64,000 nucleotides of DNA from Bacteroidota bacterium (lineage in GTDB: Bacteria > Bacteroidota > Bacteroidia > NS11-12g > UBA955), in assembly GCA_963169345.1 (NCBI GenBank), contig CAUJCT010000053.1:186001-250000 (forward strand), given 5' to 3'. The translations under genes and the position numbers were made by a program. Below the pieces are notes generated by a model. The model was not told the origin of the DNA. It did no database searches and worked only from the letters and a program-made list of their open reading frames with translations. Positions 24,578-51,943 of the stretch are shown in pieces. Positions within the stretch are counted from its first letter, which is position 1. Each line of letters opens with the position of its first letter.

Positions 24578-24870
24578 GTTTCTTTCGCTATAAACTTCCA
24601 TATTTAATGATTGTGTGAATGTTTATTAATAGAATTAATAAAAAAATTACGAAATTTCCGCCATTTAAAATTCGGTCTTTTTGTGCAAAAATTAAGAAAA
24701 TGTCGAATTACTGAAATAACCTCTCCATATAAATCAAATGTCAATTTAAAATTTATATTGCACTAATTCGATAATCTGAAATGCATTGATTTATAAATAA
24801 ATAAAAGCGTAAATATAATATTTAGAAGAAAATAGAACTTCTTTAAATTAATTTTCCCTTGGTTAATTCA

Positions 24871-25290
24871 ATGATTTTGTTTAATTTTCCCGCTTTGAAA
24901 AAGTTAAGTTCGATTATATTGATTTTCATTTATCTGATAACCATATCAGGTGCGAGCTTATCTATTCACCATTGCATGGGAAGAACTTCATTTACCTTGT
25001 TGGGTATTACAATTAATAAGACATGTAAGTGCACCCATCAATCTGAAAAACATTCGTCTAAGTGCTGTGATAACAAGAAAGTAGTCATCAAGAATACTGG
25101 AGATAATTTTTCTCCTAAGGAGAGTATTGAGATAAAGCCCACTTCCTTTAAATCCATAAGTGTTAAATACCAGCTTTTTGCCATTTCTTTCCTTTGTGAG
25201 GAATTTTTTAAACCCTATTATAATATAAAGGCTCCGCCTGATATTTCTTCTCATCATCTCTATATCAAAAATAGAGTCATTTTAATTTGA
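24871..25290 (+). CDS. HYC_CC_PP-like small membrane/secreted protein
   Basis: 139 residues from ATG 24871 (TTG 24859 would add four). A hydrophobic N-terminal helix (SSIILIFIYLITISGASL) is followed by SIHHCMGR, a CKC pair, KCCDNKK, a second hydrophobic segment and a C-terminal APPDISS. These three landmarks (H-x-C, CC, PP) define the HYC_CC_PP family of Bacteroidota. Such proteins occur beside metal-transport genes; metal binding by the Cys/His residues is inference. It is the first intact gene of the metal island, 415 bp before the next confident one. Confidence 0.75.
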   Translation: MILFNFPALKKLSSIILIFIYLITISGASLSIHHCMGRTSFTLLGITINKTCKCTHQSEKHSSKCCDNKKVVIKNTGDNFSPKESIEIKPTSFKSISVKYQLFAISFLCEEFFKPYYNIKAPPDISSHHLYIKNRVILI

Positions 25291-25704: not shown

Positions 25705-26499
25705 ATGAATACTTTACGTTATGTTTTTTGTATTTGCCTGTTGATATCCTTGACAAACAAGGGCTACAGTCAAACCACCGCAATGGATTTCAACCGAAAG
25801 GATTGCATGGGCAACACACACCATTTATTTGGTGACTTAGATTCGGGAAAGATTGTGATACTTGAGTTTTTTATGCAAAGCTGCAGTCCATGCATTGCCG
25901 CCGGTAAAAAGCTTGAGGATATGAAATCTAAACTGCTAGCCCAATATCCAGGAAGAATAAAGGCTTATGCCATAGGCTATAGCAATACATACAGCTGTGC
26001 TAGTAACGCAAATTGGGTAAGCTCGAACGGACTGACTTCCATACCGATGGATAGCGGTGCGGCTCAGGTTGCCTATTATGGAGGAATGGGAATGCCTACC
26101 ATAGTAATTTTAGGAGGAGGAAAGGAACACAGAGTCTTGGGGAGTCCTTATGTCGGATTTTCTACCAGTGATACGACCCAAATGCTGGCCGATATCAGGC
26201 AATCGTTTAAGACACTTTCCGTGGAGCCGGTTAAAGCAGATATTACTTCCATAAGAGTATACCCTAATCCGGTTAGTTCAGAACTGACCTTGGACATTAA
26301 TCTTAAGGAAGATGGAATGCTTACTATAGAAATACTTGATGTTACAGGCAAAATCATTAATACTGTCTGTAATATTGATGTCACTTCTGGTGAGTCCTCA
26401 TACACTTTTAATACGAGTGAACTTGCTCCTGGGCTTTATTATATTCAAATCTCAGCGAATGGTTCAATGCAGCAGGTTAAGTTCAATGTCTTACACTAA
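25705..26499 (+). CDS. Secreted thioredoxin-fold protein with CSPC motif and T9SS sorting domain
   Basis: 264 residues. The signal peptide ends near KGYSQ. A TlpA/redoxin-type domain follows (about 25-175) with the active site FFMQSCSPCIAAGKKL (CXXC) and the cis-proline region GMGMPTIVIL. The C-terminal T9SS domain starts at RVYPNPVSSELTLD (about 188) and ends KFNVLH. It is the first gene of a tightly packed operon; the multicopper oxidase starts 2 bp after its stop. A surface disulfide reductase or copper-delivering redox partner of the oxidase is the natural inference. AhpC-like peroxidase is less likely because of the CXXC. Confidence 0.88.
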   Translation: MNTLRYVFCICLLISLTNKGYSQTTAMDFNRKDCMGNTHHLFGDLDSGKIVILEFFMQSCSPCIAAGKKLEDMKSKLLAQYPGRIKAYAIGYSNTYSCASNANWVSSNGLTSIPMDSGAAQVAYYGGMGMPTIVILGGGKEHRVLGSPYVGFSTSDTTQMLADIRQSFKTLSVEPVKADITSIRVYPNPVSSELTLDINLKEDGMLTIEILDVTGKIINTVCNIDVTSGESSYTFNTSELAPGLYYIQISANGSMQQVKFNVLH

Positions 26500-26500
26500 A

Positions 26501-28237
26501 ATGGTAAAAGGAATAATACACAGCTTATCAGTGGTTTGCATATTTATGGGAACTACTAGTACGGCATTCTCCCAAAACCCGCTATATATTCCAGATACTT
26601 TATCAGGCAATGTATTCAATTTGACTGTACAGAAAGGCACCAAAACCTTCGTTACTGGGTTTAATACACCTACTTTTGGGTATAATGGAAATATATTGGG
26701 TCCCACCTTATTGATCAACAAGAATGACAGTATAACTCTGAACGTAACCAATACAATTGGAACCTCAACTACCGTTCATTGGCATGGATTCCATGTTGCA
26801 CCGCAATACGATGGCGGACCGCATCAGATCATACCTAATAACTCAACCTGGAGCCCATCTTTCAGAATGCTTAATAATGCCGGCACCTATTGGTACCATC
26901 CACACGGGGAAAATAAAACCGAAATTCAAGTCTCAAAAGGGTTGGCTGGAATGATCATCGTAAGAGATAAAACTGAACCTTTCGTTTTGCCAAGGACATA
27001 TGGAGTGGACGATTTTCCTTTAATCTTACAGACCAAGGCTTTTGATATCCTCTATCAGGTAGCCACGGCCAATCATGAAGATACTCTGGTGATGGTCAAT
27101 GCTACCGTTGATCCATTCCTAAAGGTTCCCCAGCAGATAGTAAGACTGCGCTTGCTAAACGGAAGCACAGACAGGTCCTTTATGGTGGGTCTTAGCGACA
27201 ATAGGGCATTTCACATTATAGCCACGGATGGAGGCTTGCTTTCTGCGCCATACCAGACAAATAGGATCAGATTGTCTACAGGAGAAAGGGTAGAAATACT
27301 CGTGGACTTTAAGAATGATACGATTGGAAAACAACTCTATCTGAAAAGCTACGGCTCAGAATTGTCCAGGGGGATTATTGGTGCAGATTCTGTAGGCACC
27401 TCTTTGATCGTGATTGGTGAAGGCTATCATGCCAATCCGCTGAATGGAGCTGATTTTAACCTGTTGAGGCTAGATGTTGGTTCTCCCTCAAGTAATCCTG
27501 TCAATTCGGTTCCTGTTAAATTCAATGATCTTGAACTTTTTGACACAAGCAATGTTGATGCGTACAGGCATATTCATTTCTCGAGCGATACATCGGGTTT
27601 TGGTAGTCAGGCGAATGTCGACGGGCCATTTAAGATAAACGGTAAGTCATTCCATATGGATTCTGTTAACATCATCACCTACCTTGGTAGTAAGGAGATA
27701 TGGACCTTAACCAATTCAACAATGGTTGCTCACCCGTTTCATATCCATGATATCCAGTTTAATGTTTTGGATATCAATGGTCAAAAGCCAACGCCAGAAT
27801 ACAGCGGTTGGAAGGATGTTATGTTGGTCATGCCAGGTGATACGATTCGATTCATTACCCAATTTACAAATTTTTCCAATAAGATTGTTCCGTATATGTT
27901 CCATTGCCATTTGTTGCATCATGAAGATGAAGGCATGATGGGATCTTTTCTGGTTCTGGACACAAATATGACGAGAATAAAAGACCTGACGTTTGCTGAG
28001 AATATACACATATATCCAAATCCTTCTACCCAAATATGGACGATCAGCACCACAGTAACATCCAATGAATGTAAAGTAGAAGTTTTTGATGCGTTTGGCA
28101 AATTGCTTGATACAAATCCACTTATTAGAGATGTTGGAACTATCGAGATAAACAACTCTTCATTCCAGCCAGGAGTTTACATACTTAGGCTACAATATGG
28201 ACACACTTTTAAAACCATTAAACTTATTAAGAATTAA
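26501..28237 (+). CDS. Secreted multicopper oxidase with T9SS sorting domain
   Basis: 578 residues from ATG 26501 (an upstream ATG at 26486 is less likely). The signal peptide ends near TAFSQ. Three cupredoxin domains carry all four copper-ligand motifs: TVHWHGFHVAP (His93-x-His95), GTYWYHPHGE (133-135), AHPFHIHDIQF, and the type 1/trinuclear HCHLLHHEDEGMM with a Met axial ligand. A T9SS domain (IYPNPSTQIWTIST onward) closes the protein. The family oxidises Cu(I), phenols or metals. Context with HMA, DUF3347 and Cus genes favours cuprous oxidase. It follows the thioredoxin-fold gene by 1 bp, and the next ATG is 1 bp after its stop. Confidence 0.95.
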   Translation: MVKGIIHSLSVVCIFMGTTSTAFSQNPLYIPDTLSGNVFNLTVQKGTKTFVTGFNTPTFGYNGNILGPTLLINKNDSITLNVTNTIGTSTTVHWHGFHVAPQYDGGPHQIIPNNSTWSPSFRMLNNAGTYWYHPHGENKTEIQVSKGLAGMIIVRDKTEPFVLPRTYGVDDFPLILQTKAFDILYQVATANHEDTLVMVNATVDPFLKVPQQIVRLRLLNGSTDRSFMVGLSDNRAFHIIATDGGLLSAPYQTNRIRLSTGERVEILVDFKNDTIGKQLYLKSYGSELSRGIIGADSVGTSLIVIGEGYHANPLNGADFNLLRLDVGSPSSNPVNSVPVKFNDLELFDTSNVDAYRHIHFSSDTSGFGSQANVDGPFKINGKSFHMDSVNIITYLGSKEIWTLTNSTMVAHPFHIHDIQFNVLDINGQKPTPEYSGWKDVMLVMPGDTIRFITQFTNFSNKIVPYMFHCHLLHHEDEGMMGSFLVLDTNMTRIKDLTFAENIHIYPNPSTQIWTISTTVTSNECKVEVFDAFGKLLDTNPLIRDVGTIEINNSSFQPGVYILRLQYGHTFKTIKLIKN

Positions 28238-28238
28238 A

Positions 28239-29354
28239 ATGAAAAAAATTATTGTTTCTTTTATCGTTATTGTAACTCTTAATGCTTGTAGAAAAAAAGA
28301 AGTTGCACCACAACTTGAGTTGAAGAACTCAATTCCCGAATTTTATAAGCCGGCCGTTGAATCTGAATATGGCAAACTATTGCCTGAATTCCTTATAAAG
28401 GCGACAAGTGTCCAAATGATCTCCAATCCACAGGATCTTGACTTCAATCCCCTTCGTCCAAACGAACTATGGATAATCAATAAAGGCACTGAGAATTCAG
28501 GCGGCTCAACCGTGATGTTTAGCAATGTCGGGCTTCCAAACCAAGATTTTGATTACAGGAAAGATGGCAATGCCTGGCATTTTATGTCACTGCCTTCTGC
28601 ATTGTCATTTGGTAATGACGGCACCTGGGCGACTTCTCCGAATGTCTTGGATGCCAACCATAATGGAGGCACCTATACGGGCCCCACCCTTTGGTCAGCA
28701 AATCTGAATATTTATGCTCAGCCTTCAGGAGGCAATGGCAGCCATCTGGATATGCTTCACGGCAGTCCTTACGCCATGGGAATCGAATCTGAAAAAAGCA
28801 ATGCATATTGGGTTTTTGATGGCTATAACCGCCATATTGTCCGTTATGATTTTGGGAATGACCATGGCCCTGGAAATGACGACCACTCAGATGGAAAGGT
28901 TCGCAGGTATAAGCAAATAAGTGTCAAAAGGAATCCAAATGTGCCTTCACACATGGTGCTGGACAAGGAAAAAAAATGGCTTTATATCGTTGATGGTGGG
29001 AATAAACGTGTTTTGCGTATGGATATCACTTCAGGTTCCAAGCTGAGGGATTTGCCATTGACCAATGAAATGCTGGCAGAACACTGGGAAATGTCTGGGG
29101 TGGTGTGGGAGGAGTTTATTCCTGCGTCATTTGGACTTAAACAGCCATGTGGTATTGATATACGGGATAATCGCCTGTTTGTGTCCGACTATGAAACAGG
29201 AGAAATCTTGTGCTTTGATACCAATGATAAACGGATTCTTGATAAGATCAATACAGGCAAAACAGGTATTATGGGAATTAAGATAGATTCCAATAACAGA
29301 ATTTGGTTTGTCAACTCTGTGTCGAATGAACTAATTAAATTGGAACCTAAATGA
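28239..29354 (+). CDS. Beta-propeller (NHL-like) lipoprotein
   Basis: 371 residues from ATG 28239. Lipoprotein signal MKKIIVSFIVIVTLNAC has its lipobox Cys at 17. The mature part has propeller strands such as PQDLDFNPLRPNELWIIN, MVLDKEKKWLYIVDGGN, LFVSDYETGEILCF and IKIDSNNRIWFVNS, typical of NHL/SMP-30-type propellers. A His-rich stretch (GNDHGPGNDDHSDG) is a possible metal site. The stop overlaps the next ATG (ATGA), so it sits firmly inside the secreted copper operon. Its role is unknown; a surface scaffold for the oxidase is conceivable. Confidence 0.85.
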   Translation: MKKIIVSFIVIVTLNACRKKEVAPQLELKNSIPEFYKPAVESEYGKLLPEFLIKATSVQMISNPQDLDFNPLRPNELWIINKGTENSGGSTVMFSNVGLPNQDFDYRKDGNAWHFMSLPSALSFGNDGTWATSPNVLDANHNGGTYTGPTLWSANLNIYAQPSGGNGSHLDMLHGSPYAMGIESEKSNAYWVFDGYNRHIVRYDFGNDHGPGNDDHSDGKVRRYKQISVKRNPNVPSHMVLDKEKKWLYIVDGGNKRVLRMDITSGSKLRDLPLTNEMLAEHWEMSGVVWEEFIPASFGLKQPCGIDIRDNRLFVSDYETGEILCFDTNDKRILDKINTGKTGIMGIKIDSNNRIWFVNSVSNELIKLEPK

Positions 29355-30055
29355 TAAAGAAAATGTTAATTGTTAGAATGCTGATACTGATAACTATCCT
29401 TATTCAGTATAGCAAGAGCCAAGCTCAGTTGAGATTTCCCAATGGAAATGTCCTTGACCTAAGGACAAGTAATAATTTTTTGTATTTGGAAACACGCATA
29501 CTGTTCAATACAGGTGAGTATAAATCTTCAGACTATAATTGGGTGAAGCTGTCAGATTCGCTTGATCCAAATTGGTTTGTAACCGCATGCTTCAATGGGG
29601 AATGCAGGACAGAATTGTCTCCAAACGGCAGTTTCCTTAGCGATTATGGCATTGATGATACGACCTGTTTTATTGCCTTTCATGTTGAAACTTATGATTT
29701 TGATGGCAAGAGTGTGATCAAGTATCGGGTTTACAATAAAAACAACATTTCCGACCAGTCTGATTTGATATTCAATATAACATTTGAAGATAAGTCGAAT
29801 ATAGATATGAATGAAGCCTCTACTTTTAGGGTGATGAACCCAGTTCGAAATGAGATAATAATTGAAAGCAAGGATTCGCTTCAGGAGGTTCTGTTGTATG
29901 ATAACTTGGGTAGGCTTGTTTCCAGTTGGGATAATGCAGTTTTTGAAAATGGTAGGACAAGAATTTCCTTGCCGCCGTTAAATGGGGGGCTGTTTGTATT
30001 AAGGGTAAGGATGAACGGTCTGTGGCTATCGAGGAAAATTCAAATGAGCAATTAA
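29351..30055 (+). CDS. Small secreted CX4C protein with T9SS sorting domain (copy 1)
   Basis: 234 residues. Signal peptide ends near SQAQ. A beta-sandwich-like domain (about 30-150) contains NWFVTACFNGEC (CX4C) and DDTTCFIAFHVET. The T9SS domain begins near FRVMNPVRNEIII and ends SRKIQMSN. The layout of Trp, CX4C, then a long beta strand with HVxT is shared with the next gene, so they are tandem paralogues. The start ATG overlaps the preceding stop (ATGA). No named family is recognised; the cysteines may form a disulfide or bind copper. Confidence 0.8.
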   Translation: MIKKMLIVRMLILITILIQYSKSQAQLRFPNGNVLDLRTSNNFLYLETRILFNTGEYKSSDYNWVKLSDSLDPNWFVTACFNGECRTELSPNGSFLSDYGIDDTTCFIAFHVETYDFDGKSVIKYRVYNKNNISDQSDLIFNITFEDKSNIDMNEASTFRVMNPVRNEIIIESKDSLQEVLLYDNLGRLVSSWDNAVFENGRTRISLPPLNGGLFVLRVRMNGLWLSRKIQMSN

Positions 30056-30266
30056 TATGTATGAAGCAAATTGGCGTAATTTTATTCGGTGTTCTGGCAG
30101 CAGTTCCAGCAATAGGAAAATGAAACATGGAAATGAATACAAAATGCTTGACATTGACTGCCCAGCCGCTTACGTCGTTGGCTTCAAACCTAACGGCATC
30201 GTGTCAGGAATTATAAGAAAAAGAATGGAGGCAGGAAGTGCCTTAGGCAATGAATTAATAGAAGCT

Positions 30267-30950
30267 ATGAGATTGATAAATTTTAGGTTATTTGCAATCC
30301 TTCCGGTTGTCCTTAGTATTCATTTGTCAGCCCAAAGCTACAGCATAACGCCTAATGATACGTTTCTTCTTGATGGTACAATGGAAGATCAACAAACATT
30401 GACCATCTCATTGCTTAACACATCTAATGAGCAGCTTGTGCTTGCCTGGCGTGAAATCAGTGTAAATATGCCTGATTATTGGGAAGCGGCGGTCTGCGAC
30501 AATAAAATATGTTATGCTGGATTGGAAGATAGCGGCACTATGAATGGTATTGGACCAAGTGAATCTTCCTTCTTGTTATTGCATATCACCCCTCATGTTA
30601 ATGATGGTCAGGCTGTTGTGCGTTATTCTGTATGGGACATGGATGCGCCTCTTAAACAGGATACGCTGACCTTTATCTTAAATGTTAAGAAGTTAAGCGT
30701 TGTGAGCAAGGTTAGCTCAAATGAGGCAGTAATACTTTTTCCAAACCCGGTACGCGATGAGTTACATATTATGACAGACTCCACAGTTCATTTTAAATAC
30801 TCGGTATTTGATATGAATGGAAGGTCTTTGATAGATGGCTCATCAGAATATGGGAGAGTGTTTTCGACACAATCCTTGGCTAAGGGCATTTATTATATAA
30901 CGATTGTAACAGATAATTTTACTATAACCAAAAGATTGATTAAAGCATGA
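30267..30950 (+). CDS. Small secreted CX4C protein with T9SS sorting domain (copy 2)
   Basis: 227 residues from ATG 30267, chosen because it opens a good signal peptide (MRLINFRLFAILPVVLSI, cleavage near LSAQ). Upstream in-frame sequence to 30057 has no signal character. The domain has DYWEAAVCDNKICYAG (CX4C), GPSESSFLLLHITPH and VVRYSVWDMD, parallel to the previous gene. The T9SS domain starts at ILFPNPVRDELHI and ends KRLIKA. The stop overlaps the next start (ATGA). The 211-bp gap before it holds a 20-codon frame (30061-30123, MKQIGVILFGVLAAVPAIGK) of doubtful meaning. Confidence 0.8.
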   Translation: MRLINFRLFAILPVVLSIHLSAQSYSITPNDTFLLDGTMEDQQTLTISLLNTSNEQLVLAWREISVNMPDYWEAAVCDNKICYAGLEDSGTMNGIGPSESSFLLLHITPHVNDGQAVVRYSVWDMDAPLKQDTLTFILNVKKLSVVSKVSSNEAVILFPNPVRDELHIMTDSTVHFKYSVFDMNGRSLIDGSSEYGRVFSTQSLAKGIYYITIVTDNFTITKRLIKA

Positions 30951-32398
30951 AAATAATAGTTTCAATTTGTATCGTTTTGATATGTCTATCAGGTTTCGGT
31001 CAAAACTCCATTTCGTGGAAAATGACTGAAAATATCGCCAGTAATAGCTTTGGTAATTCGCATCCTCGAATGGCTTTAGATGGCAAAGGGAATCCAATGG
31101 TGATATGGGGAAGGATGTCAGACGGATCGGTTATGTTTGTAGGGTGGAACGGCTCTGCTTTTACGACTCCTGTGAAGCTGAATCCGACATGGCTAAAGGT
31201 CGCTACAGCTTCTTGGATGGGGCCCGATATTGCATCAAAGGGCGACACTGTTTATGTGGTGGTAAAAAGAACACCCGAATCATCCGACACCAATCATATT
31301 TTCTTGTTAAGGTCCTTGAATGGAGGCGTGTCGTTTGATGCCCCGGTAAGAGTAGATGATATAGCGGACAGTATTTCGCGCTTTCCAACAGTGACGGTTG
31401 ATGCATTAGGAAATCCCATTGTTGCCTTTATGAAGTTCAACTCGTCATTTCTTGAGTCGAGATGGGTGGTGGCCAGATCTACGGATTTTGGCAAGACCTT
31501 CTCTAAGGATGTAAAAGCCAGTGGCTATAGCGGCGTGAATGCAGAGGTATGCGATTGTTGCCCGGGTGCAATCGTGTCTTCAGGCAATGTGACTGCTATG
31601 CTATACCGCGATAATCTCAACAATATCAGGGATATTTGGACGGGCATATCCACCAACAATAATCAATCGTTCAGTTCGGGTTACAAATCTGATAATACCA
31701 ATTGGATGATCATGTCATGCCCTTCAAGCGGACCTGATGGGGTCATAGTGGGCGATTCATTGTATAGCGTATTTCTGAGCGGAGGAAATGGAAGCTATAG
31801 GACATATCTTAGTACATCCTCCGTTAGTGGCAAAAGCCTGGGATCAGTCAAAAGGCTGACCGGGAATATGGCAGGACTTGGCCAGCAGAATTATCCGAGG
31901 ATAGCTTCGTATGGCAGTGCAATGGCCATAGTATGGAGGCAGACCGTAAATGGAAGCGTGCAGTTACCATTGTTGTTTACAAGAGATATTCAGAACGGTT
32001 TTAACACTAATACTGATACTGTCGACCTCGGGGACATTACCAATATGGATGTAGCCCTTGGCGATAGGAAAATATATGTGGTATGGCAGGATGACAATTC
32101 GGCTACGGTGAAATTCCGCTCGGGCTCATACTCACCCATAACAGCCATTAAGGATATCGATATACGTAAGCCGATCGAAATTTCACCTAATCCTGTTAAT
32201 TATTATGTTCATCTGAGTTCAGACAACGGCTACTCGGGTATCAGGATAGTGAACATCTTAGGAGAAACCGTTTATTTACAGAATGAATGGGTGTACGAGA
32301 GCCAAACCTTAGATATATCATTTTTAGAAAAAGGACTATATTTTATTCAGGTTCAGATTGGGGAAGAAACATTCACTTATAAACTTATTAAAGAATGA
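30947..32398 (+). CDS. Secreted BNR/sialidase-like propeller with CDCCP motif and T9SS sorting domain
   Basis: 483 residues. Signal peptide ends near SGFGQ. A six-bladed-propeller-like region (about 25-400) holds BNR-type Asp boxes (RSLNGGVSFDAPV, ARSTDFGKTFSKD, STNNNQSFSSG). Midway it has EVCDCCPGAIV, a CDCC cluster unusual for sialidases and a possible metal site. The T9SS domain (ISPNPVNYYVHLS) ends YKLIKE. It overlaps its neighbours by 4 bp on both sides (ATGA). Sialidase activity is doubtful because the catalytic Arg triad cannot be confirmed; a copper-related surface role is inferred from the operon. Confidence 0.82.
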   Translation: MKIIVSICIVLICLSGFGQNSISWKMTENIASNSFGNSHPRMALDGKGNPMVIWGRMSDGSVMFVGWNGSAFTTPVKLNPTWLKVATASWMGPDIASKGDTVYVVVKRTPESSDTNHIFLLRSLNGGVSFDAPVRVDDIADSISRFPTVTVDALGNPIVAFMKFNSSFLESRWVVARSTDFGKTFSKDVKASGYSGVNAEVCDCCPGAIVSSGNVTAMLYRDNLNNIRDIWTGISTNNNQSFSSGYKSDNTNWMIMSCPSSGPDGVIVGDSLYSVFLSGGNGSYRTYLSTSSVSGKSLGSVKRLTGNMAGLGQQNYPRIASYGSAMAIVWRQTVNGSVQLPLLFTRDIQNGFNTNTDTVDLGDITNMDVALGDRKIYVVWQDDNSATVKFRSGSYSPITAIKDIDIRKPIEISPNPVNYYVHLSSDNGYSGIRIVNILGETVYLQNEWVYESQTLDISFLEKGLYFIQVQIGEETFTYKLIKE

Positions 32399-32724
32399 AG
32401 AAAATAATAGTATTGGCAATGGTTTTTATAAGTGCCGGATTAAAGGCCCAGGAAACCACAAAAAGAGACACTTTTAAGGTTTGGGGCAATTGCGAAATGT
32501 GTGAAGAGCGCATTGAAGGAGCCGCGTTGAAGGTCAAAGGGGCTAAGAGCGCGGATTGGGATGCGGAGAAAGGGGTTGTGATCCTTGTGTATAACCCTTC
32601 TTTAACCAATCCAGAAGCAGTTCAAAGAGCTATTGCAGGAGCTGGCTATGATACAGAAAAGATAAAGGCAGATGACAACACATACGCAAAGCTTCCCAAA
32701 TGTTGTCAATACAAGCGTCAATAG
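32395..32724 (+). CDS. Exported heavy-metal-associated (HMA) copper-binding protein
   Basis: 109 residues. Signal peptide (MKKIIVLAMVFISAGLKAQ) then a ferredoxin-like HMA domain with the metal loop GNCEMCEERIE (CXXC) replacing the common GMTCxxC. VKGAKSADWDAEKGVV, AIAGAGYDTEKIKA and a C-terminal KCCQY complete it. Such proteins bind Cu(I) and are usually chaperones. The signal peptide puts this one outside the cytoplasm, unlike CopZ. It is the last gene of the secreted operon, joined by ATGA overlap. Confidence 0.9.
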   Translation: MKKIIVLAMVFISAGLKAQETTKRDTFKVWGNCEMCEERIEGAALKVKGAKSADWDAEKGVVILVYNPSLTNPEAVQRAIAGAGYDTEKIKADDNTYAKLPKCCQYKRQ

Positions 32725-32832: not shown

Positions 32833-33393
32833 ATGAAAATCATCAAAATCGGCTACATAGCCCTAATCACGGTGCTATTCGCCTGTGGAAACAGTCAATC
32901 CAAAGGAAATGATCAAGAACATGGAGATCACAAACCGAGTAAATCCGAGTTATCTGGATTTGCAGCCCCGATAAGCCCAATCATACAAAACTATATCCTT
33001 TTGAAAAATGCCCTGGTTGCTTCAAATCCAGAAGAAACGAAGGCCTGTGCAGAAAGTATGCTCAAAGAAATCAATAAAACGGATACTTCAAAATTCAGTT
33101 CCACTCAGAGAGAAATATGGGATACAAAAATTGAGATAATTAAAGGGAATGCAGCGCATATCTCGGAAACTTCAGAAATTTCGCATCAAAGAGACCATTT
33201 AAATCCTCTGTCGGAAGCCATGTTTGAATTAATTAAGTCCTTTAAGGGAGAAAAAACGCTTTATTATGACTTTTGCCCAATGGCGAATGACAATAAAGGA
33301 GGCTACTGGCTGAGTGAAACTGAAGAAATTGAAAATCCTTATTATGGGAATGATATGTTAAACTGCGGGGAGGTAATTGAATCGGTGAAGTAG
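32833..33393 (+). CDS. DUF3347 lipoprotein (copper-associated)
   Basis: 186 residues. Lipoprotein signal ends VLFACG. A His-rich linker (HGDHKP) precedes a helical DUF3347 domain with SPIIQNYILLKNALV, a central RDHLNPLSEAMFELIKSF, and the closing YDFCPMAN and YYGNDMLNCGEV. This domain also occurs at the C-terminus of CusB-like adaptors and is common in copper islands of Bacteroidota. The CPM and MLNCG motifs are candidate copper ligands. It stands 108 bp after the HMA gene, perhaps as a separate unit. Confidence 0.88.
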   Translation: MKIIKIGYIALITVLFACGNSQSKGNDQEHGDHKPSKSELSGFAAPISPIIQNYILLKNALVASNPEETKACAESMLKEINKTDTSKFSSTQREIWDTKIEIIKGNAAHISETSEISHQRDHLNPLSEAMFELIKSFKGEKTLYYDFCPMANDNKGGYWLSETEEIENPYYGNDMLNCGEVIESVK

Positions 33394-41268: not shown

Positions 41269-42531
41269 ATGATAAATACTTTCATCTCGTGGGCATTAAA
41301 AAACCGAATCATCGTCCTTCTAATTGCAGCGGGAGTCACTGTATATGGTATCTATGCCGTAAAAAATACCCCTGTTGATGCAATACCTGATTTATCTGAA
41401 AACCAGGTTATCATTTTTACTGAATGGATGGGGCGAAATCCGCAAATCATAGAAGATCAGATCACTTATCCCCTCGTGAGCAATCTGCAGGGGGTTCCGA
41501 AGATCAAGAACATACGTGCAAACAGTATGTTTGGGATGAGCTTTGTATTCGTGATTTTCAATGATGATGTGGATATTTATTGGGCAAGGACAAGGGTGTT
41601 GGAGAGATTAAACTATGCACAACGTTTGCTTCCACAGGGCATTACACCCACACTTGGGCCTGATGGAACGGGCTTAGGACATGTCTATTGGTACACCCTC
41701 GATGCGCCTGGTTATGATTTGGGAGAACTTCGTGCCTTGCAGGATTGGTACGTTCGATTTGCCTTGCAAACCGTTGAAGGAGTGAGCGAAGTGGCCTCTT
41801 ATGGAGGGTTTCAACGCCAGTACCAAGTGGTGGTTGATCCCTACAAACTTCGTTATTATGATATTCCCTTGATGGAAGTGGCTGAAAGCATTAAGTCTAA
41901 CAATAACGATGTGGGCGGGAGAAAATTTGAACAGTCGGATATTGGCTATATCATAAAAGGTATGGGCTACATTAAAGACATAAGGGAAATAGAAAACATT
42001 CCGCTCAAAACAATAAACTCTGTTCCGGTAAGAGTGAAGGATGTTGCAACGGTGCAAATGGGGGGTGAACTCCGGCTTGGTATTATTGATGAAAATGGAG
42101 GTGGAGAAAAGGTAGGTGGAATAGTTGTAATGCGGTATGGGGAAAATGCCAAAGACGTAATTGAACGAATTAAAGAAAAGCTGCCTGATATTGAAAAGGG
42201 ATTACCACCGGGAGTAAAGTTCAAAGTCGCTTATGACCGTTCTGATCTGATTGATGCCACCATTGCCACATTGAAAGATGCGGTTCTGGAAGAAATTATC
42301 GTTGTGGCGATTGTTCTTTTCATATTCCTCCTTCATGTAAGAAGCGCCTTAGTTGTAATTATTACCATCCCCATGTCTGTTCTCATTTCCTTTATCATGA
42401 TGAGCTGGTTCGGAATTACATCCAACATCATGTCATTAGCAGGAGTAGCATTGGCAGTGGGCGATTTAGTGGATGCGGGAATTGTGATGGTGGAGAATGC
42501 AATGAAGTCAATAAGCGGGGAGGACAATTAA
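41269..42531 (+). CDS. cusA: CusA-like heavy-metal RND pump, N-terminal part (frameshifted)
   Basis: 420 codons of a CusA/CzcA family pump. The first helix is followed by TPVDAIPDLSENQVI (the heavy-metal RND signature), porter subdomains with LGPDGTGLGHVYWYTL, and helices 2-4 ending GDLVDAGIVMVENAM. The frame then meets TAA at 42529-42531, while the rest of the pump continues in another frame from about 42520 on. The family length is about 1,040 residues and the two parts sum to about that. The GGGG run at 42517-42520 is the likely site of a lost base (see findings). Confidence 0.9.
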   Translation: MINTFISWALKNRIIVLLIAAGVTVYGIYAVKNTPVDAIPDLSENQVIIFTEWMGRNPQIIEDQITYPLVSNLQGVPKIKNIRANSMFGMSFVFVIFNDDVDIYWARTRVLERLNYAQRLLPQGITPTLGPDGTGLGHVYWYTLDAPGYDLGELRALQDWYVRFALQTVEGVSEVASYGGFQRQYQVVVDPYKLRYYDIPLMEVAESIKSNNNDVGGRKFEQSDIGYIIKGMGYIKDIREIENIPLKTINSVPVRVKDVATVQMGGELRLGIIDENGGGEKVGGIVVMRYGENAKDVIERIKEKLPDIEKGLPPGVKFKVAYDRSDLIDATIATLKDAVLEEIIVVAIVLFIFLLHVRSALVVIITIPMSVLISFIMMSWFGITSNIMSLAGVALAVGDLVDAGIVMVENAMKSISGEDN

Positions 42532-42554: not shown

Positions 42555-44450
42555 ATGTTAACAAACGAAGAAAGAGAAAAGAGAATAGAAGACTCCTCCA
42601 AACTGATTGGGAAAGCTGTATTTAATTCAATTCTTGTTACACTGGTGTCTTTCAGCCCCATACTTTTCCTTACAGGACAGGAACATAAACTCTTTTCCCC
42701 TTTAGTATGGACAAAAACTTTTGCCATGATAGGTTCCGCCTTCGTGGCTATATTCCTTGTTCCGGTATTAATGGTGATTTTACTAAAAGGAAATGTACGT
42801 CCCGAAAGTAAACATCCTGTTTCAAGATTTTTTCTATGGATGTATAACCCGGTGATTCGCTGGTGTCTGAAATGGAAGAAAACGACCATCGCCCTCAGCC
42901 TTGCTTTGGTGTTGGGAAGTGTTCCTTTGGTTCTCAATCTCGGTACTGAGTTTATGCCCCCATTGGATGAGGGTTCCCTGCTTTTTATGCCGGTTACCTT
43001 GCCCGATGTTTCCAATTCTGAGATCAAACGCATCATGCAGGTACAGGATAAATTAATGATGACAGTTCCCGAAGTACAAAACGTGCTTGGTAAAGCGGGG
43101 CGTGCCAATACCGCTACCGATAATGCACCCATCAATATGATTGAGAGTATTATTCTACTAAAGCCACAATCCGAATGGAGAGAAGGTTTAACAAAGAATG
43201 ACATTATCAATGAACTGAACTCTAAAATGCAAATACCGGGTGTTATTAATGGCTGGACACAACCTATTATTAACCGGATTAATATGCTTTCTACTGGTAT
43301 CAGAACAGATGTTGGAATTAAGGTGTATGGGCAAAACCTCGATACCATTAATAAGCTGGCACAACAGTTCAAAAAAGAGTTGGAGGGCCTGGATGGCGTG
43401 AAAGACCTTTATGTAGAGCCTATTGTAGGGGGAAAATACATTGAAATAAAAGTGAGAAAAGATGAAATAGGCAGATATGGGCTTTCGGTTGATGATGTGA
43501 ATATGTTTATTGAAACAGCAATCGGTGGTATGAATGTAACTACTACCATTGAAGGCCGGCAGCGGTTTTCTGTCAATGTACGTTTTGCCCAGGATTTCCG
43601 TGATAAGATTGATAAGCTTAAACGAATGCAACTGCAAACAATGGATTATGGACCTATACCACTTTCTGCTGTTGCAGACATCAATATTACTGAAGGTCCT
43701 CCCATGATTAGCTCTGAAAATGCGATGCTTCGAGGAACATTATTGTTCAATGTCCGAGAGAGGGATTTGGGAAGCACTGTAAACGATGCAAAAAAGAAAC
43801 TGGAAGCAGCAGTGAAAAAATTGCCAAAAGGATATTTCTTATCCTGGAGCGGGCAATATGAAAATCAGGTTCGTGCAAATGAACGGTTAAGGATGATTAT
43901 TCCCATTGTCTTGGTGATAATAATGGTTATCCTCTATTTCACATTTCATACGTTCAGAGAGGTGCTTATTGTTCTTTCCGCTGTTCCAGTTGCTTTGGTT
44001 GGCGGAGCTTACTCCTTGCACTTCTTTGATGTTAATTTTTCTGTTGCGGTTGCAGTTGGTTTTATTGCCCTGTTTGGCGTTGCAGTCGAAACAGGCGTAT
44101 TGATGCTGGTGTATATGAATAACTCCGTTTACAAAAAGGTGAATAAGAACAAAACAGAAAATAAGTCAGTAACAAAACAGGATATTGAAGATGCGATTTA
44201 CGATGGAGCTGCTTTACGGTTACGACCAAAGCTGATGACAGTGTTAGTGGATATTATTGGCTTAATGCCTGTTTTACTGGCAACCGGAACAGGAAGTGAT
44301 GTAATGAAGCCCATAACCATTCCTTTTGTTTTTGGATTAATTACATCCACTTTGTTCGTGCTTATTGTTTTGCCGGTATTATACGCTTTGGTAAGAGAAT
44401 ATGAGCTAAGAAAGCATGGAAAATTAATAGTAGAGGAATTTGAAGACTAA
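42555..44450 (+). CDS. cusA: CusA-like heavy-metal RND pump, C-terminal part (frameshifted)
   Basis: 631 codons after the frameshift, starting formally at ATG 42555. It begins in the linker before helix 5 (LTNEEREKRIEDSSKLIGKA), then FLTGQEHKLFSPLVWTKTF, the second porter half with LGTEFMPPLDEGSL and a Met-containing cleft, and helices 7-12 with ALFGVAVETGVLML and LRLRPKLMTVLVDIIG. All core parts of the pump are present, so a single base change would restore one 1,060-residue protein. TolC-like and adaptor genes follow. If translated alone it would lack the first four helices. Confidence 0.9.
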   Translation: MLTNEEREKRIEDSSKLIGKAVFNSILVTLVSFSPILFLTGQEHKLFSPLVWTKTFAMIGSAFVAIFLVPVLMVILLKGNVRPESKHPVSRFFLWMYNPVIRWCLKWKKTTIALSLALVLGSVPLVLNLGTEFMPPLDEGSLLFMPVTLPDVSNSEIKRIMQVQDKLMMTVPEVQNVLGKAGRANTATDNAPINMIESIILLKPQSEWREGLTKNDIINELNSKMQIPGVINGWTQPIINRINMLSTGIRTDVGIKVYGQNLDTINKLAQQFKKELEGLDGVKDLYVEPIVGGKYIEIKVRKDEIGRYGLSVDDVNMFIETAIGGMNVTTTIEGRQRFSVNVRFAQDFRDKIDKLKRMQLQTMDYGPIPLSAVADINITEGPPMISSENAMLRGTLLFNVRERDLGSTVNDAKKKLEAAVKKLPKGYFLSWSGQYENQVRANERLRMIIPIVLVIIMVILYFTFHTFREVLIVLSAVPVALVGGAYSLHFFDVNFSVAVAVGFIALFGVAVETGVLMLVYMNNSVYKKVNKNKTENKSVTKQDIEDAIYDGAALRLRPKLMTVLVDIIGLMPVLLATGTGSDVMKPITIPFVFGLITSTLFVLIVLPVLYALVREYELRKHGKLIVEEFED

Positions 44451-46148: not shown

Positions 46149-47651
46149 ATGGAAAGAAGGGATTTTATTCGCTTTTCGGGAATGAGCGCTGCTTATGCTT
46201 TACTGGCTGGCAGCGCCCCGTTTCTCATTTCCTCTTGCAGGAAAGAAAGCATGATGATGGATATGGGCGGTGGCCCCGTAAATGTAATAGAGGGAACGTT
46301 TGATGTTTCTTTGCCGATTCCATCCGCTATAAACGGACAGGGAAGCTTTACAGCTCAAAACACAACACATTCAATTTTTAAAGGAAAAAATTCTAAGGTT
46401 CTCGGCTACCAGTCAGGCTCCATACTTGGCCCTACCATTCAATTAAATTCAGGGGGCGCAGTAAACCTCAATTTGCAAAATAATCTATCGGAGCCAACCA
46501 ATATCCATTGGCATGGTTTGGTAATTCCTGCTAATATGGATGGCCATCCTGAAGACATTGCACAACCCGGCTCGTCTTTCAATTACAATTTTTCAGTAAA
46601 CCAAAGAGCTGGAATGTACTGGTATCACCCGCACCCGCATGGGTTCACGGCAAAACAGGCATTTAAAGGATTGGCTGGTGTTTTTGTCGTAAATGATTCC
46701 GAAGAACAAGCGCTAAACCTGCCATCTGGAGCTTTTGAAATACCGCTTGTCATACAGGATAAACGCATTTTTCCCGATTATGCCTTAGATTATTCCCCGC
46801 AGATGGGTGAAATAATGACAGGTTATATGGGACAGTATATCACTGTCAATGGGGTTTACTCACCATATCTGAATGTAAACAAACGGAATTACAGGCTAAG
46901 GGTTTTAAATGGATCGAATGGACGTATCTACAATATTGCTTTAAGCAATAATGCTTCATTTGCCATTATAGGTTCGGATGGTGGATTGTTAGCATCACCA
47001 CAAACAGTAAGCTCCTTAATTCTTGGCCCTGGAGAACGAGCAGATTTAATTGTGGATTTTTCATCTTACTCATTGGGTACAGATTTATATCTCGTAAGTA
47101 AAACATTCAGTGCCGGTGAAGCACAGGGAACGCAGGAATTCAAGATGATGAAATTTACCGTTTCACAGAACGATACTGATACTTTTTCTTTACCCGGAAC
47201 GCTGTCTGTTCTTAATCTTATTCCTGAAAGCAGTGCTACAAAAACAAGAACGTTCAATATTTCCAATGCAGGAATGGGACATGGAGGAGGACACAGTGGA
47301 ATGAATATGAAAGGAATGCACAAAATAAATGATAAGACGTATGATGCTGACAGGATAGATGAAACAGTGCAGGCCGGAGCCACTGAGATATGGGTATTTG
47401 ATAATTCAACCGGGGCTGAGCCTCACCCCATGCACATTCACGGTATCCAGTTCCAGGTGCTTGACAGAACAGGAGGAAGAAGCTCGCTCATCCCAATTGA
47501 AAACGGATGGAAAGACACTGTGATGTTAATGCCCGGAGAGAAGGTTCGTACCATTATGACCTTTCATCAGAATAAAGGAAAATACGTTGTTCATTGTCAT
47601 AACCTCGAACACGAGGAAGACGGGATGATGTTGCAATTTGAAGTTGTTTAA
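46149..47651 (+). CDS. Tat-exported multicopper oxidase (CueO/CopA-like)
   Basis: 500 residues. The Tat signal starts MERRDFIRFSGMSAA and a lipobox-like LISSC puts a Cys at 30. Copper ligand motifs are NIHWHGLVIP, GMYWYHPHPHG, EPHPMHIHGIQF and HCHNLEHEEDGMM. A Met/His-rich insert before the last domain (MGHGGGHSGMNMKGMH) resembles the CueO methionine-rich Cu(I) site. Cuprous oxidase activity is therefore likely. It lies 6 bp after the PKD gene. It is distinct from the T9SS-exported oxidase at 26501, which has neither Tat motif nor Met-rich insert. Confidence 0.94.
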   Translation: MERRDFIRFSGMSAAYALLAGSAPFLISSCRKESMMMDMGGGPVNVIEGTFDVSLPIPSAINGQGSFTAQNTTHSIFKGKNSKVLGYQSGSILGPTIQLNSGGAVNLNLQNNLSEPTNIHWHGLVIPANMDGHPEDIAQPGSSFNYNFSVNQRAGMYWYHPHPHGFTAKQAFKGLAGVFVVNDSEEQALNLPSGAFEIPLVIQDKRIFPDYALDYSPQMGEIMTGYMGQYITVNGVYSPYLNVNKRNYRLRVLNGSNGRIYNIALSNNASFAIIGSDGGLLASPQTVSSLILGPGERADLIVDFSSYSLGTDLYLVSKTFSAGEAQGTQEFKMMKFTVSQNDTDTFSLPGTLSVLNLIPESSATKTRTFNISNAGMGHGGGHSGMNMKGMHKINDKTYDADRIDETVQAGATEIWVFDNSTGAEPHPMHIHGIQFQVLDRTGGRSSLIPIENGWKDTVMLMPGEKVRTIMTFHQNKGKYVVHCHNLEHEEDGMMLQFEVV

Positions 47652-51127: not shown

Positions 51128-51943
51128 ATGAAAAAATCATTTGTTATTTCGTTGGTTTTCATCCTGTTATTGGCTACATCATTGATGATGAAAAAAGATG
51201 GAGCGGCTCCGGGATATACAGGCTCCCCAGGCGATAGTCTTAAGAACTGCACAGCCTGCCATGGTGGGAATGCGTATAATGTCGATAATTGGATTGTATC
51301 AAATATCCCAAGCAGCGGTTATGTGCCAGGAGCAACCTATACAATAACGGCAACCAATAGAGAATTCGGTGCAACCAGGTTTGGTTTCGAAATTTCACCT
51401 CAGGATTCTTCAGGGAATTTGATGGGAAGCATGGTAATTACCGACTTGGTTAGAACCAAGTTTGTGGGGAATGATAAATATATTACTTATACTGAAAATG
51501 GCGTTGAAGGTACCGACTCTGCGGTTTGGTCATTTAATTGGGTTGCACCTAAGTCAGAAAAGGATGTCGTGTTTTATGGCGGATTTAATTCAAATGTGGA
51601 TGGCCATAAGGGAGGCGATAAAACCTATTTGTCCACCCTTACCGTAAAACGAAACAAAGCCTTGGGAGTCAATAATGTAATTATCAATGAAGCTGCGAGG
51701 ATATATCCAAATCCAAGTTTTGAATTCATTACAATTGAATTTGAAACCTTAGAATCCGGACGTGCAATAGCTCAAGTTTACGACATGTCTGGAAAAGTTG
51801 TTTCAGATTTACTTGATGAAGATGTTGAAGTGGGCGAATTCAAAAGAAGATTTACCATAGAGAATATCGCATCGGGGGAGTATTTAATAGTCGTTAAGAT
51901 CAATGGTGAAACTTACAGCAAGCGTGTCACTATTGCTAGGTGA
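51128..51943 (+). CDS. Secreted CXXCH (choice-of-anchor V/Reelin-like) protein with T9SS sorting domain
   Basis: 271 residues. The hydrophobic signal MKKSFVISLVFILLLATSL is followed by GAAPGYTGSPGDSLKNC and TACHGGNAYN, a c-type heme-like CXXCH. A beta-rich Reelin-type domain (about 60-180; RFGFEISPQDSSGNLMG, VFYGGFNSNVDG) and a T9SS domain (IYPNPSFEFITIE) ending VTIAR follow. Such 'choice-of-anchor V' proteins are common in Bacteroidota. Heme attachment is plausible but unproven, and the motif may instead mark a disulfide. It is the last intact gene before the decayed right flank. Confidence 0.85.
   Translation: MKKSFVISLVFILLLATSLMMKKDGAAPGYTGSPGDSLKNCTACHGGNAYNVDNWIVSNIPSSGYVPGATYTITATNREFGATRFGFEISPQDSSGNLMGSMVITDLVRTKFVGNDKYITYTENGVEGTDSAVWSFNWVAPKSEKDVVFYGGFNSNVDGHKGGDKTYLSTLTVKRNKALGVNNVIINEAARIYPNPSFEFITIEFETLESGRAIAQVYDMSGKVVSDLLDEDVEVGEFKRRFTIENIASGEYLIVVKINGETYSKRVTIAR

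Follow-up and report, generated by a model that had tools for sequence, protein, structure and literature searches.

In Gram-negative bacteria, the copper defences that have been studied in depth, Cus and Cue, operate in the cytoplasm, the inner membrane and the periplasm, and their last step is efflux across the outer membrane. In the multicopper oxidase CueO, a methionine-rich region confers efficient cuprous oxidase activity, and its removal lowers that activity and raises phenol oxidase activity (PMC6155172). On the outer surface, MopE and CorA are reported as copper proteins (PMC3423442, PMC3912023). A thioredoxin-like route for maintaining a copper-linked protein is provided by TlpA, which reduces ScoI (PMC6696091).

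The locus that we describe here, from a Bacteroidota genome, resembles each of these systems in part. Its oxidase (protein B) is a CueO-like three-domain enzyme, and Cus genes as in Escherichia coli occur both in related loci and in the window, by which we mean the whole 64,000-nucleotide stretch of DNA that was analysed; unlike CueO, B carries a T9SS tail that predicts a location outside the cell, lacks the methionine-rich lid, and is accompanied by proteins A, D, E and F, partners that CueO does not have. With MopE/CorA (MbnP-like) and the MbnH-like di-haem enzymes of methanotrophs it shares copper-binding proteins on the outer surface, here predicted, and T9SS-tailed MbnP occurs with MbnH in some relatives of the locus; both are absent from the operon in the window. 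The export route and the proteins differ from those of methanotrophs, and the direction of copper handling, acquisition versus defence, is probably opposite. The pairing of TlpA with ScoI in Bradyrhizobium is paralleled by a thioredoxin-fold protein (A) beside a cysteine-bearing, copper-linked one (F), but F is a predicted propeller rather than a Sco protein, the A-F pair is T9SS-tailed, and reduction of F by A is a proposal of ours. F shares its propeller fold with sialidase/BNR-like propellers, PLL lectins and CylK, to which it is about 14% identical or less, and differs from them in an invariant CxCC...C motif that is apparently specific to the F family, with no conserved sialidase site seen.

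Our best explanation of the locus as a whole is a conserved, T9SS-exported module for extracellular copper handling, to which we assign a probability of roughly 0.6. That the genes constitute a conserved, copper-linked surface module appears very probable from their sequences and neighbourhoods. Such a cell-surface copper-handling system is probably undescribed; in the open-licence literature, searched mostly at title and abstract level, no paper was found on a T9SS multicopper oxidase system or, more broadly, on T9SS together with copper, and the BopA paper (PMC5158116) is unrelated. If the exported set indeed lies beyond the outer membrane, copper handling would continue one step past efflux, T9SS would take part in metal homeostasis, and a testable function could be given to a large propeller family that has no name.

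Gene layout and predicted products

Seven co-directional genes, A to G, occupy positions 25705-32724 on the (+) strand. Coordinates and open reading frame (ORF) starts agree with the arrangement of overlaps and tiny gaps, with one 211-bp gap, that the sequence-only reading had described: A-B and B-C are spaced by 1 bp, C-D, E-F and F-G by -4 bp, and D-E by 211 bp. B starts at 26501, the 26336 of the ORF listing being too early. For E the most likely start is 30267, which yields a signal peptide; the ORF start at 30057 yields none. From this spacing, the sole basis, we infer that A to G are co-transcribed; promoter and terminator scans of the locus returned sites no more numerous than in shuffles. 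The run ends with G and a DUF3347 lipoprotein gene, H (32833-33393, (+) strand; PF11827, 85 bits), directly downstream of it, and a gene for an HYC_CC_PP family protein, probably a flanking member of the set, lies upstream (24859-25290, (+) strand; NF047658, 32.7 bits against a cut-off of 28). Within the D-E gap (30056-30266), a 20-codon ORF resembling a signal peptide (MKQIGVILFGVLAAVPAIGK) was noted by eye, and may be a remnant or a small gene.

The motifs reported earlier for A, D, E, F and G were all found. A (25705-26499) is a thioredoxin-fold protein with a CSPC motif, weak thioredoxin matches and a T9SS sorting domain (PF18962, 50 bits); its CXXC is invariant in 18 aligned sequences. 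A was rejected as a Sco protein, since it carries CXXC where Sco has CxxxC and its conserved His sits in a turn that, in a thioredoxin fold, is probably remote from the active site. B (26501-28237) combines the Pfam Cu-oxidase domains with a sorting domain. C (28239-29354) was called a propeller lipoprotein; the lipoprotein half of that call stands on a lipobox (LNAC), and the propeller half rests on weak NHL matches only (E 0.005), so that C is best termed NHL/propeller-like. Homologues of C in three other loci (L005, L023, L028) have a T9SS tail where that of the window has its lipobox. D (29351-30055) and E (30267-30950) are CX4C proteins that align as relatives. The structural model of E, an Ig-like sandwich of low confidence (pLDDT 71) with generic Ig-like matches, was too weak to assign a specific fold, and the attempt was dropped. 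F (30947-32398) is the CDCCP beta-propeller discussed below. G (32395-32724) is a predicted exported HMA-domain protein (PF00403, 36 bits over a cut-off of 24.8) with its CxxC present as NCEMC, probably periplasmic.

Signal peptides were judged by eye to be present on all seven products. The Pfam model PF18962 for the sorting domain is passed by A, B, E and F, and D, with a weaker domain, passes TIGR04183 only (26.3 bits, cut-off 23), which bears out the five sorting signals counted previously. With a signal peptide and a type A sorting domain each, A, B, D, E and F are predicted T9SS surface cargo, and the genome encodes the T9SS translocon SprA (2431 bits). There are 150 T9SS sorting domains in this 3.63-Mb genome and T9SS cargo genes also cluster elsewhere in it; with so many, the tails alone are unremarkable at this locus. 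What goes beyond chance is the conservation of the set and its copper linkage.

Conservation of the set across Bacteroidota

A profile built from three F sequences located 43 other F loci, almost all of them from Bacteroidota broadly defined (with Ignavibacteria), which were examined by gene calling and profile searches; most are from metagenome-assembled genomes (MAGs) and some are related, so the counts given here are not fully independent. Conservation had been named beforehand as the point on which the proposed set could fail, and A, E, B and F do recur together across Bacteroidota. The order A-E-B-F is found in five loci, being contiguous with gaps from -4 to 12 bp in three of them (L010, L011, L021) and carrying one additional T9SS gene in the other two, between A and E in L005 and 5' of F in L006. 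In the assemblies, A of L010 and F of L021 are each split into two ORFs. A-B-F occurs in L036 and L039, and in L013 and L014 E-F and A-B form two units on opposite strands, so the set has remained together despite rearrangement. E lies directly 5' of B in 8 other loci. The order in the window, A-B-C-D-E-F-G, is thus a variant, with E following B, C and D rather than standing between A and B as in five relatives; the expectation of a conserved gene order holds for the recurrence of the set and fails for the exact position of E.

Parts of the set also occur separately. A accompanies F in about 20 loci, and about ten have A near F without B: A is followed by F in five (L028, L029, L030, L037, L043), with one gene between them in two (L008, L009), and adjoins F on the opposite strand in three (L019, L020, L022). 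A search for E alone in 40 genomes, which recovered loci without F, yielded three further A-E-B loci of this kind (L127, L129, L130). One of these, L130, reads on a single strand HYC, HMA, CusA, CusC, CusB, HMA, HYC, X294, A, E, B, C. Two Fluviicola-type genomes (L125, L126) have a single run that comprises HYC, HMA, E, half oxidases, MbnH and two MbnP.

Linkage to copper genes

For 34 genomes, all HYC_CC_PP and HMA genes were counted and compared with random placement. HYC_CC_PP is present in 12 of the 34 F loci against 0.32 expected and HMA in 11 of the 34 against 0.73; the highest values reached in two million simulations did not exceed 5 and 8, respectively. Since most of the genomes are MAGs and some are related to one another, these figures overstate independence. 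The loci counted are spread over separate branches of the F tree. CusA/B/C, DUF3347, MbnP and MbnH (the last two identified by Pfam and NCBIfam) recur near F as well, including H-type DUF3347 genes in L013, L014, L016 and L028. In over half of the F loci, some of which lie on short contigs, no screened copper family is present within 10 kb. A literature search found no paper on HYC_CC_PP, and the copper role that we give it is one inferred from its gene neighbours. The association of the set with copper, first read from the window, is thus borne out by enrichment of HYC and HMA near F in other genomes. The same neighbourhoods revise the view of the set as distinct from the classic Cus/Cue systems: in other genomes its relatives lie in the midst of Cus, HMA and DUF3347 genes, which gives it the look of an additional, outer layer of those systems.

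The propeller F

The predicted structure of F is confident (pLDDT 89), and its model aligns with CylK at Z 35.5 over 342 residues and 2.9 A (VIA-align) and with PLL lectins at Z about 29. Since these top matches are templates that we take to be seven-bladed, F is read as a seven-bladed propeller with the sorting domain attached. A working sialidase was considered and set aside as unlikely, as sialidases rank below CylK and PLL lectins as structural matches and 12 of 37 relatives have another residue in place of the arginine of the RFP motif (R145). Among 37 sequences of the T9SS clade, C202, C204, C205, C258, R221, R228 and M162 are invariant. The four cysteines are kept in 26 of 27 distant relatives, 25 of these 27 lacking a sorting domain, and both arginines (R221, R228), W253 and a CP..GP motif persist in 25 or 26 of the 27, whereas M162 does not.

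Across the phylum, 76 of the 395 genomes sampled, about one in five, contain a match to the F profile; in the order F is rare, with 4 of 108 genomes. Twenty neighbourhoods were taken around members from the phylum search. Copper genes accompany some of them: a P-type ATPase and a cupredoxin in L092, a cluster of an HMA regulator, an HMA-DoxX-like gene and CusB in L094, and an HMA protein about 2 kb off in L103. Untailed relatives lie directly beside a TonB receptor in L091, L093 and L096, another relative is beside a TlpA-like redoxin (L098), and other neighbourhoods held nothing recognisable.

The multicopper oxidase B

B has three cupredoxin domains with complete type 1, 2 and 3 copper ligand motifs (HWHG, HPHG, HPFHIH, HCHLLHHEDEGM), and its nearest solved relative is CueO (6evg). 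It misses the NCBIfam CueO equivalog (360.6 bits, cut-off 525), and residues 229-385, the stretch that matches the cuprous oxidase lid of CueO, contain no methionine; the methionine content of T9SS-tailed relatives is 2.1-4.6%. Without such a lid, cuprous oxidation by B is possible, not indicated. The copper oxidation relay originally put forward is accordingly not borne out in its stated form, B having all the copper ligands but not the lid, and we treat it as a hypothesis.

Of 12 sampled genomes that match B strongly, ten have no strong T9SS-type F. Around most of these F-free T9SS oxidases the short flanking stretches contain none of the copper families screened, and one oxidase adjoins an HMA gene (L081). 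B was therefore rejected as an obligate partner of F, T9SS oxidases existing without F and the corresponding label showing four or more changes along the F tree.

The window encodes a second multicopper oxidase (46149-47651), without a T9SS tail and with methionine-rich runs (MMMDM, MNMKGM), which adjoins CusB genes. Elsewhere, paired half multicopper-oxidase-like proteins, two genes each, adjoin E (L125:4998-7054, L126:3923-5997, L128:7350-9406, L131:4266-6292). By eye, both halves have a signal sequence; the C-part is T9SS-tailed, and the genes overlap by 1-4 bp; HxHG and HxxHxH are kept and the HCH motif is absent.

A proposed function and its alternatives

We propose that Cus-type pumps would push Cu(I) out across the outer membrane, where the surface proteins would handle it. 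F, through CxCC and the fourth cysteine, and D/E, through CX4C, may bind copper via thiols that A would keep reduced, or whose disulfides it would resolve, much as TlpA does for ScoI; B may oxidise Cu(I), or another reductant, using O2, and G may hold copper on the periplasmic side. This chemistry (thiol copper binding, A as thiol keeper, oxidation by B) is tentative, and we rate it at somewhat under even odds. More speculative still is the fullest version, in which T9SS would build an outer layer of the copper defence: F would found a family, so far undescribed, of CxCC propellers that bind Cu(I), a secreted thioredoxin would serve F, F would feed a surface multicopper oxidase, and Cus-expelled copper would be caught and oxidised outside. 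Against the proposed mechanism stand the lack of an obvious electron donor for secreted A, the missing lid that CueO needs for efficient cuprous oxidation, the B-related T9SS oxidases found without F, and the more than half of F loci in which the screened copper families are missing within 10 kb.

B could instead work outside the cell as a phenol oxidase (laccase) on organic substrates, with A, E and F as copper-loading or folding helpers and the nearby copper genes supplying or guarding the metal. The effect of lid loss on CueO (PMC6155172) fits this reading, as do T9SS oxidases without F and the fact that A-E-B is the tightest unit. A-F pairs, however, are common without B, and there are loci in which E accompanies HYC, HMA, MbnP and MbnH and the sole oxidases nearby are atypical halves. 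Proteins that merely help B would not be expected to outlast it, so the persistence of A-F and E in its absence counts against a helper role, and we regard the laccase reading as unlikely. Quite unlikely, in our estimate, is copper acquisition, with surface proteins capturing scarce copper, as MopE/CorA do in methanotrophs, and handing it to a TonB receptor. In its favour, T9SS-tailed MbnP and MbnH are found together at several loci of F or E, and untailed F relatives lie directly beside TonB receptors, but the window and most A-E-B loci (L006 excepted) have Cus, HMA or DUF3347 instead of MbnP, which suggests excess copper. Finally, these proteins may be ordinary T9SS cargo for general extracellular thiol and redox upkeep, lying near copper genes by accident. 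Clustering of cargo genes elsewhere in the genome, the generic redox-like character of A and the CX4C proteins, and the many F loci with no screened copper gene would all accord with this, yet copper genes are enriched far above chance in dispersed lineages, and both E and the untailed F relatives have copper neighbours of their own; an accidental association appears very unlikely. An exported module that handles copper outside the cell is accordingly the reading that we prefer.

Other features of the copper neighbourhoods

Several further features were seen in the window and its relatives. The RND copper pump CusA is split in the window, with an N-part at 41269-42531 (Pfam 2-414) and a C-part at 42555-44450 (417-1021), and is split near the same place in L009, L011 and L021 and, by profile matches, L130; in L011 and L021 the parts are reversed and kilobases apart, making a sequencing error unlikely. 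MbnP proteins with a T9SS sorting domain adjoin MbnH di-haem enzymes in L027, L029, L043, L125 and L126, and both MbnP of the Fluviicola-type run (L125, L126) are T9SS-tailed. Choice-of-anchor V proteins are encoded beside the operon (L005:6753-7589, L021:11375-13228, L036:5995-7460, L039:5995-7457), that of the window (51128-51943) being about 19 kb downstream; most are T9SS-tailed, and those read show haem-like CX4CH or CXXCH motifs. A T9SS-tailed protein at L005:11458-13047, in which the tail is the sole Pfam domain, has a haem-like CAGCH motif and, by eye, stretches resembling a copper type II monooxygenase. Two proteins (L005:15179-15742, L094:7713-8282) join an HMA-type N-terminus to an AraC-like helix-turn-helix, again judged by eye, and may be copper-sensing regulators.
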